A stretch of DNA of 50,388 nucleotides from an uncultured Thermoleophilia bacterium (GTDB lineage Bacteria; Actinomycetota; Thermoleophilia; UBA2241), in contig CAIOZS010000238.1 in assembly GCA_903862845.1 (NCBI GenBank), positions 1 through 50,388 on the forward strand, written 5' to 3'. Position 1 is the stretch's first letter. Each line of letters starts with the position of its first letter. The notes below the pieces were generated by a model. That model made no database searches. It saw only the letters and a program-made list of their open reading frames with translations, and was not told the DNA's origin. The translations under genes and the position numbers were made by a program. Of the stretch, positions 173-7,044 are shown piece after piece.

Positions 173-236
173 TTACTTGCTTTCACTGGTTCAACCTCTT
201 ACTTGCTTGACTGGGTTCGAAGCGACGTCGTAGTGT
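173..236 (+). promoter_or_regulatory. Promoter/operator of first mttB-like gene, with direct repeats
   Basis: A -35 box TTGACT (207-212) and -10-like TAGTGT (231-236) precede the ATG at 274. Two imperfect direct repeats start with TTACTTGCTT at 173 and 199, 26 bp apart, the second overlapping the -35. The element ACTTG (175-179), CACTGG (184-189), TGCTTGAC (204-211) recurs with identical spacing upstream of the second mttB-like gene at 2874-2910. I infer a shared operator, probably for the adjacent zinc-ribbon/TetR regulator. Confidence 0.6.
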
Positions 237-273
237 TCGCTCTCCAGCCCGTCGTCAGCAGAGAGGACGTGAG

Positions 274-1677
274 ATGTCGCGAGTGACCACCGTGGTCTGG
301 GGCGAGGCCGACTGCGCGAGAGCGCGTGCGGCGAGTGACCGGATCCTCGAAGAGGCCGGCGTTGAGGTGCCGCACGCCGAGGCCCGGGACCTGCTGGCCG
401 CCGGCGGAGCACGCGTGGAGGGCTCCCGCGTGCACATCCCCGCGGCCGTGGTGAACCGGGCGCTGGCCACGGCTCCTGCAAGCTTCGAGGTGCCGGGCAG
501 AGGCAAAGGCGGCATGGTCCTCGAGGAGGGCCGCACCTACTTCGGCACCGGCCCCGACTGCCTCTACCTGCACGATCCCCTGAGCGGCGAGCGGCGGCGC
601 GCGGTGCTCGACGACGTGAGGGTGAGCGCGGCCCTGTGCGACCAGCTCGACGAGGTCGATTTCATCATGTCCATGGCTCTTCCGGAGGACGCGCCCATTA
701 CGGCGGACGACCTTCTGCAGTTCGCGGCGATGCTCGAGGGCACGACGAAGCCTCTCGTCATGTCGACGAGCCACGGCGGCGACGGTCTCGAGGCCATGTG
801 CGAGATGGCCGGCCTCTGCGGCGAGCGCGGCAGCTTCGCCTGCCTCATCATGTCGTCGCCGCCGCTGCGTTTCGACCCCGCCGCTGCCGACAAGCTCGTC
901 GCGTGCGCTCGCCTCGGCGTGCCCGCGGTGCTCGCGCCGGCGCCGTCGGCCGGGGCGACCGCCCCGGCGTCCACGAGCGCCGCGGTCGTCGTCGGCGACG
1001 CGGAGGTGCTGGCGGGCCTCTGCATCCACCAACTGGCCTGCCCCGGCGCCCCGTTCGTGTACGGCGTGGGCGCCTCGGCCCTCGACATGCGCACGGCTCT
1101 GGACCCGTACGTCGGCCCCGACCACTTTCTCGGCAACCAGGCGGGCTGCGACCTCGCCCGGCATTATGGTCTGCCCAGCTGGTCCTACGCCGGCCCCTCC
1201 GACGCCAAGTCTCTCGACGAGCAGTGGTCGGCCGACGTGGCGATCACGACCGTGCTCGGCGCCGTGTCCCGGGCCACGCTGCTCCACGACCTCGGCTACA
1301 TGGAGTCGGGGATGGCCGGGGCGCCGGAGTCCATCGTCCTCGGCGCCGAGCTGGCGAGCTTCGCGCGCCGGTTCATGAGGGAGCTGCCCCTCGATGAAGA
1401 GGCTCTGCAGCTGGACGAGATCATCGCCGTCGGGCCCGGGGGCAACCACCTGGGCCGGCCCTACACGCGCAGACACCACCGCGACTTCTGGCAGACCGGG
1501 CTCTTCGACCACACCGTCTTCGAGCGCTGGCACGCGGACGGTGCCTCGACGCTGCGAGAGCGCGTGGCACGCAAGACCGCGGAGCTCCTGGCAAGAACGC
1601 CGGATCACGAGATCCCGGCGGCCACGCGCGCCGAGTTCGAGCGGATCATCGACGAGGTGGCAAGGCGTCGGGAGTGA
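274..1677 (+). CDS. MttB-family (trimethylamine methyltransferase-like) corrinoid methyltransferase 1
   Basis: 467-aa member of the MttB superfamily (COG5598). Family members move a methyl group from a quaternary or tertiary amine to the Co(I) of a corrinoid protein. The reading frame is uninterrupted, so it is the non-pyrrolysine branch, whose known members act on betaines (glycine betaine MtgB, proline betaine MtpB, carnitine MtcB). It aligns along its whole length with the gene at 2991 (shared WGEADC start, YFGTG/YYGTG, ATLLHD, AGPGGNHL-like motifs). The ATG at 274 is preceded by GAGAGG at 261-266. No corrinoid protein gene is adjacent. The family is clear; the substrate is unknown. Confidence 0.88.
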   Translation: MSRVTTVVWGEADCARARAASDRILEEAGVEVPHAEARDLLAAGGARVEGSRVHIPAAVVNRALATAPASFEVPGRGKGGMVLEEGRTYFGTGPDCLYLHDPLSGERRRAVLDDVRVSAALCDQLDEVDFIMSMALPEDAPITADDLLQFAAMLEGTTKPLVMSTSHGGDGLEAMCEMAGLCGERGSFACLIMSSPPLRFDPAAADKLVACARLGVPAVLAPAPSAGATAPASTSAAVVVGDAEVLAGLCIHQLACPGAPFVYGVGASALDMRTALDPYVGPDHFLGNQAGCDLARHYGLPSWSYAGPSDAKSLDEQWSADVAITTVLGAVSRATLLHDLGYMESGMAGAPESIVLGAELASFARRFMRELPLDEEALQLDEIIAVGPGGNHLGRPYTRRHHRDFWQTGLFDHTVFERWHADGASTLRERVARKTAELLARTPDHEIPAATRAEFERIIDEVARRRE

Positions 1678-1685
1678 CGGGGCCG

Positions 1686-1712
1686 GTCGGCGCGTGACGG
1701 AAGCGCGCCGGC
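1686..1712. terminator. Hairpin between convergent genes
   Basis: CGGCGCG (1688-1694) pairs with CGCGCCG (1704-1710), extended by a G-U and a G-C pair, with a 9-nt loop. It lies between the end of mttB-like 1 and the end of the leftward regulator gene. There is no U-tract, so the terminator role is inferred. Confidence 0.3.
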
Positions 1713-1733
1713 GGATACCGCACGCGACGCGCG

Positions 1734-2819
1734 TCAGCCCGCGAGCTCCTCCACAGGCACGCCGAGCTGGCGGGCGGCGAAGCCGAGCAGGAGCTCGCCG
1801 GCCCGCCCCACGTGCATGTCGGTGTAGCCGACGGCGGAGCGGAAGCTCAGTCCGTCGGCGACCGCGACGAACCAGTGCGCGAGCTCGTCGGGCGGCGCCA
1901 CAGGATGGAACACGCCCGCTCGCTCGCCGTCCTCGATCGCCTCGCGGATGAACGAGAGCCAGTAGTCGGACATGGTGACGCAGGCCGTGAGCAGCTCCGG
2001 GTGGAAGCGGATGCGCACCCAGATCTCGAGCCACAGCAACACCTCGTCGTGCAGGCGCCCCTCGGCCGGCAGGGCCAGCTCGAGGATCCCCCTGAGGCGC
2101 TGCGCGCAGTCCGTCGTCTCCTCACGCAGCTCCTCGATGCGCGCATACGTCTGTTCCATGGCCCACTGCAGGGCCGCGAGCAGGATGTCGTCTTTGGAGC
2201 GATAGTAGTAGCGCACCATCGTGCTGGAGACGCCGGCCTCGCGGGCGACGTCCGAGACACGCGTCGCGGGGAGGCCGTGAGCTGCGAACGCGCGACACGC
2301 GGCCGCCCTGATGGTGTCGCGCGCTCTGGACGAGCGCGTGACCGCCCGCTCCTCGTCGCTGCGTTCGCCGGCGCCGCGCGCCGCGCCCGCGTCCTTCCAC
2401 AGCCGCTCGAGCAGAGCTGCGTCGGGCCCGCCGCCGCTCGTCGCTGCCAGGATGGTGTTCTTGATGCGCAGGGCGGACTTGTAGTTCACTCCCAGCCGGC
2501 GGGCCAGCGCCTCCGCCGTCGGCGGCGCGTCCCCCTCACGGACGAGCAGCGCTCCTGTGAACCAGGTGGCGATGCTCAGGCGCGAGTGCTCCATGAACGT
2601 GCCGGCACAGGGGTAAACGTGGCGGCCGCATGAGTCGCACGCGTAGGCGCGCCGCCCAGTGACGCGGTGGAACCGCCGCACCGTGCGGCACTGCCTGCAG
2701 ACGGCGCTCACGCCGTCCGGCGCGTACAGGTTCGTCCACAGCCACTCCAGGCAGTTCGCCTCGTCGCCGAACGGCTCGAACGCAGCGGCGCCCGCGCGCG
2801 CATCGTCGGTCCTTGGCAT
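1734..2819 (-). CDS. TetR regulator with N-terminal transposase-type zinc ribbon and HTH
   Basis: 361-aa predicted DNA-binding regulator. Residues about 20-70 carry a zinc ribbon (CRQC...CDSC, C41/C44/C61/C64). Residues about 70-125 (MEHSRLSIATWF...LGVNYKSALRIKNTI) resemble the N-terminal HTH region of IS1595/ISXO2-type transposases. No DDE domain follows. From about residue 165 there is a standard TetR HTH (VSDVAREAGVSSTMVRYYY) and a TetR-like ligand domain. The ORF track starts 22 codons earlier, but GGAGGA about 8 nt before the ATG at 2819 decides the start. It is divergent from the second mttB-like gene and probably regulates both mttB-like genes and itself. Its ligand may be the methylated amine or a breakdown product. 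Confidence 0.82.
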   Translation of the reverse strand: MPRTDDARAGAAAFEPFGDEANCLEWLWTNLYAPDGVSAVCRQCRTVRRFHRVTGRRAYACDSCGRHVYPCAGTFMEHSRLSIATWFTGALLVREGDAPPTAEALARRLGVNYKSALRIKNTILAATSGGGPDAALLERLWKDAGAARGAGERSDEERAVTRSSRARDTIRAAACRAFAAHGLPATRVSDVAREAGVSSTMVRYYYRSKDDILLAALQWAMEQTYARIEELREETTDCAQRLRGILELALPAEGRLHDEVLLWLEIWVRIRFHPELLTACVTMSDYWLSFIREAIEDGERAGVFHPVAPPDELAHWFVAVADGLSFRSAVGYTDMHVGRAGELLLGFAARQLGVPVEELAG

Positions 2820-2852
2820 CTCGGTCGTCCTCCGCGATCGGCTACTTGGCTC

Positions 2853-2936
2853 ATTGTACGCAGGCGCGCGTTCACTTGTCGACACTGGATATCATCGATA
2901 CGTGCTTGACATGGATATCCGAACGTAGACTAGACT
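2853..2936. promoter_or_regulatory. Divergent promoter/operator region, regulator and second mttB-like gene
   Basis: Rightward: consensus -35 TTGACA (2906-2911) with -10 TAGACT (2931-2936, spacer 19). Leftward: -35 TCGACA (2882-2877) with -10 TACAAT (2858-2853, spacer 18). The region holds ACTTG (2874), CACTGG (2883) and TGCTTGAC (2903), spaced exactly as before the first mttB-like gene. It also has the palindromes TGTCGACA (2877-2884) and GGATATCC (2913-2920), and TGGATATC repeated 26 bp apart. The shared element overlaps the regulator's own -35, which suggests autoregulation. Confidence 0.62.
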
Positions 2937-2990: not shown

Positions 2991-4406
2991 ATGCCCACGG
3001 CACGACTGACACTCTGGGGCGAGGCCGACTGCCGGCGTCTGCACGAAGCCACACTCGACCTGCTCGCCGACGTCGGGGTCGAGGTCAGGTACGAGCCGGC
3101 GCTGGCGCTGTTCCAGGCCGCCGGGTGCGCGGTGGACGGGCGCCGGGTGCGCGTTCCGGCGCGCGCGGTCGAGAAGGCGCTGGCGAGCGCCCCGCGCGAG
3201 TGGCTGCTCAAGCCGCGCGGCGGCGACACCGCGCCGCTCGCGCTGCGCGACGGCGACGTGTACTACGGCACCGGGTCGGACGTGCTGTACATCATCGATC
3301 CGGACTCCGGAGAACGTCGCCGCGTACGTCAGGCCGACATCGAGGGGCAGGCCGCACTTTGCGAGAAGCTGCCCCACATCGACTTCGTCATGAGCATGGG
3401 CCTGCCGGAAGACGCGCCGCGCGAGGTCGACGACCTCGTCCAGGTCGTCGCCATGCTGCGCGGCACGCGCAAGCCGCTGATGATCGCGCCGCGCGACGGC
3501 AGCGTGCTGCGTCGCATCCAGGAGATGGCCGAGCTGTGCGGTGAGAAGGAGAGCGTCTCCATCTACGCCATGCCGTCACCGCCGCTGATGCACGACCCCG
3601 ACGCGCTGACCAAGGTCATCGGCTGCGCCGAGCTGCAGATCCCGCTCATCTACGCGCCGGCGCCCAACATGGGCGCGAGCGCGCCGCGCAGCATCGCCGC
3701 CGTGGTGCTCGTCGGCAACGCCGAAACGCTCAGCGGGCTCGTGTTGCACCAGCACGTGCACGCCGGCGCGCCGTTCGTCTACGGCGCCGGCGGCGACGTG
3801 ATGGACATGCGTTCCATGACCGCCCCCTACACGCCCCCGGACAGCCGGCTCGCCCTCCACGGCTGCTGCGAGATGGCGCGCTTCTACGGCCTGCCGAGCT
3901 TCTCCTACGCGGGCGACGCGGACGCCAAGACGCTCGACCAGCAATGGGGCGCCGAGGCGGCCTTCACCACCGCCTACGGCTCGCTGTCCCGCGCCACGCT
4001 GCTGCACGATGTGGGCTACCTGGAGACCGGCCTGCTGACCTCCTACGAGTCCATCGTGCTCGGCAACGAGCTCGTGGGCTACGCCCGCCAGTTCATGCGC
4101 GACGTCCCCGTGGACGACTACTCCCTGGCACTCGACGAGATCAAAGCCGCGGGGCCGGGCGGCAACCACCTGTCTTCCCGGTACACGCGCAGGCACCACC
4201 GCGAGTTCTGGTCGGCCGACCTCTTCGATCACGGCATGCACGACCGCTGGGCGGCCGAGGGCGGCTTGACGCTGCTCGACCGCGTGCGTCAGCGTGTGGC
4301 GGAGCTGCGCGGCTCGCCGCGCCTCTTCGCGCTCACGCCGGAGCAGGACGCGGCGCTCGAGGGTCTCGTGCGCGAGGCCCTCGACGACCACGCGGCACGC
4401 ATCTAG
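2991..4406 (+). CDS. MttB-family corrinoid methyltransferase 2
   Basis: 471-aa paralogue of the 274-1677 product, collinear over the full length, so the pair looks like a local duplication now separated by the regulator gene. It shares LWGEADC, YYGTGSD, SRATLLHD, GPGGNHL and the Y-T-R-R-H-H-R-(E/D)-F-W block. No in-frame amber codon is present; the TAG at 4404 is the normal end. The ATG at 2991 follows GAGAGGAG at 2976-2983 and is preferred over the upstream TTG at 2940 in the ORF track. It is followed closely by an alcohol dehydrogenase and an aminotransferase, suggesting one catabolic operon. The substrate is not known. Confidence 0.87.
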   Translation: MPTARLTLWGEADCRRLHEATLDLLADVGVEVRYEPALALFQAAGCAVDGRRVRVPARAVEKALASAPREWLLKPRGGDTAPLALRDGDVYYGTGSDVLYIIDPDSGERRRVRQADIEGQAALCEKLPHIDFVMSMGLPEDAPREVDDLVQVVAMLRGTRKPLMIAPRDGSVLRRIQEMAELCGEKESVSIYAMPSPPLMHDPDALTKVIGCAELQIPLIYAPAPNMGASAPRSIAAVVLVGNAETLSGLVLHQHVHAGAPFVYGAGGDVMDMRSMTAPYTPPDSRLALHGCCEMARFYGLPSFSYAGDADAKTLDQQWGAEAAFTTAYGSLSRATLLHDVGYLETGLLTSYESIVLGNELVGYARQFMRDVPVDDYSLALDEIKAAGPGGNHLSSRYTRRHHREFWSADLFDHGMHDRWAAEGGLTLLDRVRQRVAELRGSPRLFALTPEQDAALEGLVREALDDHAARI

Positions 4407-5658: not shown

Positions 5659-7044
5659 GTGACGACGAAGGAACGCAGACCGGACCGCAGGCGCATCGCC
5701 GAGCTCCTGGAGAGAGAGCTGAAGATCGTCGCAGACAACACGCCCGCGTGCCGTGAGCTCTACCGGCGGGGCCTCGAGTCGCTGCCGATGGGCGTCGCCT
5801 CCAGCTATCAGGCGCGCGACCCGTACCCCATCTACGCGCGCGAAGGCGCCGGCTCGAAGATCGTCACCGTGGACGGCAAGGAGATGGTCGACTTCCACAA
5901 CGCCTTCGGCTGCATGGTCCAGGGTCACGCCCACCCGGTGATCGTCGAGGCGGTGCACGAGCGCATGAAGCTGGGCTCCCAGTTCGCGCTGCCGTGCGAG
6001 GATTCCATCATCGTCGCCGAACACCTGGCGCGGGACTTCAAGCTCCCGAAGTGGCGCTTCGTGAACTCCGGCTCCGAGGCTACGATGGACGCCATCCGCA
6101 TCGCCCGCGGCTTTACCGGCCGCGACACGGTGCTCAAGATCATGGGCTCCTACCACGGGCACCACGACTATGTGATGGTCTCGGTGATGATGTACGACGA
6201 GGACCTCGGCCCACGCGACGGCTACGTCTCGCTGCCGTACGGCACCGGCCTGCCGGCGTGCGCCGTCGCGATGACCGTCCCCGTGCCGTACAACGACATC
6301 GCCATGATGGAGGCGCGCATCGAGCGCCTCATCGATGAGGGCCGCACGCCGGCCTGCCTCATCATGGAACCGGTCATGATGAACCTCGGCGTCGTGCTGC
6401 CCGAGCCCGGCTTCCTGGAGGCCGTGCGCACGCTGACGAAAAAGCACGGCATCGTGCTGATCTTCGACGAGGTCAAGAGCGGCATCACCACGGCCGCCGG
6501 CGGCGCCGTGGAGCGGTTCGGCGTGGTGCCCGACATGGTCACGCTGGCCAAGGCGATCTCCGGCGGCCTGCCAGCGGGCGCCGTGGGCGGCACCGACGAG
6601 ATCATGTCGGTGATCGCCCCCGGCAAGGTCTACCAGGTCGGCACCTACAACGGGAACCCGCTGTGCATGGCGGCCGCCCGGGCCAGCCTCGAGAAGGTCA
6701 TGACTCCCGAGGCGTACGCGTGGCTCGACCACCTCAACGGTCGCCTCATGTCCGGCATCGACGCCGTCAACGCCGCGCACGGGCTGCCGTACTACACCGT
6801 CGGCATCCGCTCCAAGGGTTGCGTGACATTCTCGAGAACGAAGATCACGGACTACGAGTCGTACATCGAGCACCAGGACCACGAGCTTTGCAGGCTCGCC
6901 TGGGCCTACGCGTTCAACCGCGGCGTGCTCATCGCCGGCAACCGTGAGGCCGAGTGGACGCTCTCCATCCAGCACGCTGACGACGACATCGACCGGTATC
7001 TGGCGTTTTACGAGGAGCTCATCCGGGACGTGACCGCGGCCTGA
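5659..7044 (+). CDS. Class III PLP aminotransferase, glutamate-1-semialdehyde aminomutase-like
   Basis: 461-aa fold-type I PLP enzyme. Typical class III features are visible: NSGSEATMDAIRIAR, GSYHGHHDY, IFDEVKSG (the Asp that holds the pyridine nitrogen) and the PLP lysine in TLAKAISGG. The long N-terminal part and GSEAT pattern resemble HemL-type aminomutases, but the catabolic context and absence of haem genes argue for a transaminase of an amine or omega-amino acid. The GTG start at 5659 follows GGGAG with short spacing. It is the last gene of the rightward mttB-2 / alcohol dehydrogenase group. Confidence 0.85.
   Translation: MTTKERRPDRRRIAELLERELKIVADNTPACRELYRRGLESLPMGVASSYQARDPYPIYAREGAGSKIVTVDGKEMVDFHNAFGCMVQGHAHPVIVEAVHERMKLGSQFALPCEDSIIVAEHLARDFKLPKWRFVNSGSEATMDAIRIARGFTGRDTVLKIMGSYHGHHDYVMVSVMMYDEDLGPRDGYVSLPYGTGLPACAVAMTVPVPYNDIAMMEARIERLIDEGRTPACLIMEPVMMNLGVVLPEPGFLEAVRTLTKKHGIVLIFDEVKSGITTAAGGAVERFGVVPDMVTLAKAISGGLPAGAVGGTDEIMSVIAPGKVYQVGTYNGNPLCMAAARASLEKVMTPEAYAWLDHLNGRLMSGIDAVNAAHGLPYYTVGIRSKGCVTFSRTKITDYESYIEHQDHELCRLAWAYAFNRGVLIAGNREAEWTLSIQHADDDIDRYLAFYEELIRDVTAA

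Follow-up and report, generated by a model that had tools for sequence, protein, structure and literature searches.

Genes at the locus

The window, i.e., the whole stretch of 50,388 nucleotides that was analysed, stems from an uncultured Thermoleophilia bacterium. Near its start, two mttB-like genes flank a regulator gene that is encoded on the opposite strand:

274-1677, + strand: mttB1, MttB-family methyltransferase of the non-pyrrolysine type, frame open and stop-free (Pfam PF06253, E 1.2e-72)
1734-2819, - strand: regulator, IS1595-type zinc ribbon plus HTH (aa 20-128) fused to a TetR/BetI-like repressor (aa 165-355)
2991-4406, + strand: mttB2, MttB-family methyltransferase without in-frame TAG (Pfam PF06253, E 1.4e-69)

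All three genes are intact. The two methyltransferase genes are homologous neighbours, and their proteins are 50% identical. Both proteins belong to the MTTB family, while neither is a trimethylamine MttB of the pyrrolysine type, as an internal stop is lacking and the scores against the TIGR02369 equivalog (279 and 292 bits) stay well below its cut-off of 525. The host assembly comprises 37 matches to PF06253 and its congeners 22-39. Many of these reading frames, in the host as well as in the genus, contain exactly one in-frame TAG, which suggests the use of pyrrolysine in uncultured Thermoleophilia.

From a two-site motif to a direct-repeat array

A preliminary description of this DNA pointed to a promoter element shared by both mttB genes, ACTTG-N4-CACTGG-N14-TGCTTGAC at 175-211 and 2874-2910, and both occurrences are indeed exact and equally spaced. 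Even with two mismatches allowed, the 4.38 Mb assembly contains no other match. However, the pattern was written from these very sites, so that its rarity ('expected 0') is a post hoc figure and no test. The best ungapped 37-nt window between the mttB1 and mttB2 promoters comprises 23 matches, a value equalled in 9 of 400 shuffled pairs. The two sites alone are thus weak evidence, weakly better than chance and only suggestive, and the case must rest on a comparison across genomes.

The regulator gene and an mttB gene are arranged divergently in four related genomes (G003, G004, G005, and G010). The regulators of G003 and G005 are 58% identical to that of the window, and the divergent promoters of these two congeners keep TACTTGGC, ACTTG, and TACnTGCTTGACA at the spacing of the window, with ACTTG-N21-TACnTGCTTGACA lying between regulator and mttB2, while the intervening sequence has changed. 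CACTGG is absent from these orthologous promoters and was consequently dropped from the motif. Direct repeats 26 bp apart had been claimed for both promoters and are found at both, TTACTTGCTT at 173/199 and TGGATATC at 2886/2912. The former pair is the motif itself, whereas the latter is missing from the divergent promoters of G003 and G005 and occurs in the host genome only, as does a GGATATC inverted repeat at 2887-2920. A near-match to the pattern as first described is present in G005 upstream of a corrinoid-protein gene, and the orthologous gene of G003 carries the same array upstream, i.e., in trans.

If the six promoters are aligned on their -35, all of them show ACTTG and, starting 25 bp further on, TACnTGsTTGAC, which places ACTTG and ACnTG 26 bp apart. 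A third copy (xxTTG) lies 28-30 bp upstream of ACTTG in each promoter, though degenerate (CCTTG) at the corrinoid gene of G003. The element is better described as an array of direct repeats (TACTTGS, 28-30 bp, ACTTG, 26 bp, TACnTGsTTGAC) whose last box lies over the -35. In the window, its parts are:

147-151, + strand: box 1 of the mttB1 promoter, GCTTG within CTGCTTGCC, from the six-promoter alignments
175-179, + strand: box 2 of the mttB1 promoter, ACTTG, invariant across the six promoters
200-211, + strand: box 3 of the mttB1 promoter, TACTTGCTTGAC, covers the -35 TTGACT (207-212)
2843-2850, + strand: box 1 of the divergent promoter, TACTTGGC, also kept in G003 and G005
2853-2882, - strand: predicted regulator promoter, -35 TCGACA (2882-2877), 18 bp, -10 TACAAT (2858-2853), from a consensus scan
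2874-2878, + strand: box 2 of the divergent promoter, ACTTG, abuts the -35 of the regulator
2899-2910, + strand: box 3 of the divergent promoter, TACGTGCTTGAC, lies over the -35 of mttB2, TTGACA (2906-2911)

Thus the last block does cover the rightward -35 in both promoters, as had been stated. It does not reach the leftward -35 of the regulator, as had also been stated; that hexamer abuts the first block instead. Box 1 of the divergent promoter lies just past the predicted -10 of the regulator, about at its transcription start, and the region of the regulator promoter is conserved in the orthologs. The mttB1 promoter comprises a -10-like TAGTGT (231-236) after an 18-bp spacer, while mttB2 has a poor -10 (TAGACT, 14 or 19 bp from its -35). 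TetR proteins usually bind palindromic sites. The boxes kept across genomes are instead direct repeats, and the palindromes at 2877-2884 and 2887-2920 are not shared by the orthologs, which leaves none that is conserved.

Distribution and specificity of the array

The array keeps its spacing both among orthologs and at pathway genes located elsewhere in the genome, as is characteristic of a regulon motif. Its three carrier genomes are close relatives, and their sites are therefore not independent. Exact matches to ACTTG-N21-ACNTGSTTGAC number two in the host, two in G003, and three in G005, which are the ones that encode a close regulator ortholog, and none in the other 12 genomes searched. 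One of the G005 matches (on C30) lies in G+C-rich sequence that may be coding. G004, G009, and G010, whose regulators have diverged to 43-46% identity, comprise no matching array. A profile built from the six promoters recovered these sites at E values of ~1e-11 to 1e-13 among 40 genomes, with everything else no better than 0.03, and a shorter profile returned the same six sites only from 15 genomes; both profiles were trained on the six sites and thus demonstrate specificity, not discovery. When a matrix was derived solely from the two sites of the window, the four foreign sites ranked 3rd, 5th, 7th, and 9th in 1.6 Mb of loci. This test is partly independent; the loci are a non-random sample, some of them retrieved with the same pattern.

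Within the host, neither pattern nor profile search revealed further sites, and the array is absent from 19 upstream regions that cover most of its other mttB genes. It is likewise absent at the sister gene of mttB2 in G004, which has no adjacent regulator. Additional matches to TACNTGSTTGAC in the host genome were discarded, as those inspected fall in apparent coding sequence. The corrinoid gene of the host starts beyond the end of contig C40 (at 18680), so that its upstream region lies outside the assembly; we predict a third array site of the host there.

The regulator is a transposase-TetR fusion

The C-terminal half of the regulator is of the TetR type (PF00440 with 44.7 bits, cut-off 24; PF13977 with 50.4 bits, cut-off 27), and for this half only, structure-model and PDB fold matches support the same family. 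It is not a BetI equivalog (TIGR03384 with 60.3 bits, cut-off 201.3). The closest solved relatives of the TetR part, with ~32% identity, are crystal structures of a Saccharomonospora viridis regulator, of which 4kwa holds choline and 4nel an N,N-dimethyl amine. The name of the latter ligand begins with N,N-dimethylmet, which is read here as N,N-dimethylmethanamine, i.e., trimethylamine.

The N-terminal half scores 18.9 bits as a zinc ribbon, below the cut-off of 25.4, while an ortholog (L044) exceeds it with 26.3 bits. The zinc cysteines C41, C44, C61, and C64 are invariant in all nine aligned fusions, and a sequence search of the PDB gave no convincing relative of this half. The protein is not an IS1595 transposase, since it lacks the DDE domain that stand-alone relatives possess. 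The AlphaFold model has high local confidence with a pTM of 0.40, and the arrangement of the domains is not readable from it.

Full-length fusions occur within the genus of the host and its family; beyond these, a single further genome of the class (G197, ~31% identity) and five Nonomuraea species have them. All other matches listed among 397 genomes across the phylum cover only one half, which makes the fusion rare. Searching named genomes with the single protein returned no fusion, while an alignment-based search of the same kind recovered the genus and the five Nonomuraea species. In the titles, abstracts and term counts that our literature search covered, no paper joined IS1595, zinc ribbon, and TetR. 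The host itself encodes a second full-length fusion paralog (L014, 8849-10006, on C252) with ~31% identity and an MttB gene ~8-9 kb away. Another paralog (L013, 7836-9170, on C157) is split over two frames, by a frameshift or a sequence error, and adjoins a stretch that matches only the C-terminal part of mttB.

Proposed regulation and alternative explanations

The preliminary description took the element for an operator of the intervening regulator. While the motif as then written was wrong, this is still the best-supported reading, given the spacing kept in orthologs, the site in trans, the phyletic match, and the gene tree described below. We assign a probability of roughly 0.62 to the array being the operator array of the regulator at 1734-2819, with boxes in the same direction and a substrate-released repression that includes the regulator itself. 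Most likely, the regulator would act as a methylated-amine-responsive autorepressor of mttB1, mttB2, and, in the relatives, the corrinoid gene.

According to this model, each promoter is overlain by three same-direction ACTTG-type boxes, of which the last sits on the -35 of the methyltransferase gene; in front of the regulator gene, box 2 of the divergent promoter adjoins the -35 and box 1 falls on the transcription start. As long as substrate is lacking, bound regulator would block RNA polymerase at both mttB genes and at its own, and in the relatives at the corrinoid-protein gene as well. A methylated or quaternary amine in the BetI-like C-terminal domain would then release it. The layout of the boxes fits such an occlusion of polymerase at both divergent genes together with autoregulation. 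By analogy, the choline and N,N-dimethyl amine ligands of the relatives fit a methylated-amine signal, and it is from them that we infer the ligand. The regulator has two DNA-binding modules, the TetR HTH and the transposase-derived zinc ribbon/HTH, which may explain an operator made of oriented repeats instead of one palindrome, although any assignment of modules to particular bases would be provisional. Points against the operator reading are that part of the match at box 3 is owed to the -35 consensus TTGACA, that the three carrier genomes are close kin, that the more diverged regulators have no matching array, and that the layout is not the palindrome usual for TetR proteins.

The overlap of box 3 with TTGACA would also suit a reading of the array by another protein, be it a sigma factor that recognises an extended -35 or a global regulator, with the adjacent regulator being incidental. 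We regard this as unlikely, since the array is missing from other promoters and from genomes of the genus without the regulator, overlaps the regulator's own promoter, and has, in the inspected extra TACNTGSTTGAC matches of the host, only apparently coding counterparts. Less probable again is a role of the array-bound regulator in activation, or in both activation and repression. Boxes 1 and 2 are located upstream of the mttB1 -35, where activators can sit, and the poor -10 of mttB2 would suit activation too. However, box 3 on the -35 itself and box 1 on the start of the regulator are both typical of repression, and TetR/BetI relatives are repressors for the most part.

Residual identity after duplication of an mttB gene with its promoter, named at the outset as the observation that could overturn the operator, is very improbable, even though mttB1 and mttB2 are such similar neighbours. 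When 51 MttB proteins were placed in a maximum-likelihood tree, mttB1 grouped with a gene of G004 (98/94) that also adjoins a fusion regulator, while mttB2 and its G003 and G005 orthologs form a supported clade (100/99) that excludes mttB1; on this tree the two are not sister duplicates. In addition, the mttB1 promoter matches the corrinoid promoter of G003 at 61/125 positions and that of mttB2 at only 41/125, and the motif is found at the corrinoid gene, which is not homologous to mttB. Thus shared ancestry of mttB1 and mttB2 does not account for the motif. A chance likeness of two promoters with a common -35 is hardly credible either: the shuffled pairs that equalled the 23/37 matches leave room for it, whereas the fixed box spacing common to six promoters of three genomes already points against it.

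Possible origin of the DNA recognition and wider meaning

One might speculate that the zinc ribbon/HTH was taken from an IS1595 transposase along with a preference for CTTG(ACA), and that by way of oriented repeats it now governs a methylamine regulon, an idea that we consider rather doubtful. Upstream of two IS1595 transposase genes (L029, L033), perfect TGTCAAG-N3-CTTGACA palindromes lie over the likely -35, and four other upstream regions of such genes carry TATCCCTTGACAGGGGGTA. Since TTGACA is also the -35 consensus, these hints are only suggestive. A simple search for terminal inverted repeats of the IS1595 relatives gave no convincing ends. Upstream of the Nonomuraea fusion regulators (L199, L201, L202, L204, and L205, at ~5850-5990), a conserved CTTGTCAAGGAA is followed by CCTTG, and in most of the five regions an inverted CAAGG-N9-CCTTG is present. 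The promoter sequence that contains CTTGTCAAGGAA is different from the Thermoleophilia array, and in the one annotated case (L201) the gene on the divergent side belongs to the MmgE/PrpD family and is not mttB.

A regulator with two DNA-binding modules thus seems to be tied to a small regulon of corrinoid-dependent demethylation; the Thermoleophilia concerned are uncultured organisms with dozens of mttB genes. Should the binding hold true, it would offer a way to predict which MttB enzymes answer which amine, and would show, in bacteria, how the DNA-binding domain of a transposase became part of a metabolic repressor.

Comparison with known systems

The regulator shares zinc ribbon and HTH with IS1595/ISXO2 transposases (36-49% identity to the N-termini of transposases from the same class, over ~100-130 residues), while it carries TetR in place of their catalytic DDE_Tnp_IS1595 domain. 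Like BetI and the S. viridis regulator (4kwa/4nel), it combines TetR_N with a BetI-type C-terminal domain. In contrast to both, it possesses an additional N-terminal DNA-binding domain of the transposase type, sits among corrinoid methyltransferases, and has a direct-repeat array as putative operator. For MttB-superfamily systems, the titles, abstracts and term counts searched revealed no match to this regulatory arrangement. The enzymes mttB1 and mttB2 resemble MtgB, MtcB, and MtyB, i.e., the non-pyrrolysine systems of this superfamily, in being MttB-family proteins without amber codon, and also in that, in the relatives, a corrinoid-protein gene has the promoter array in common.
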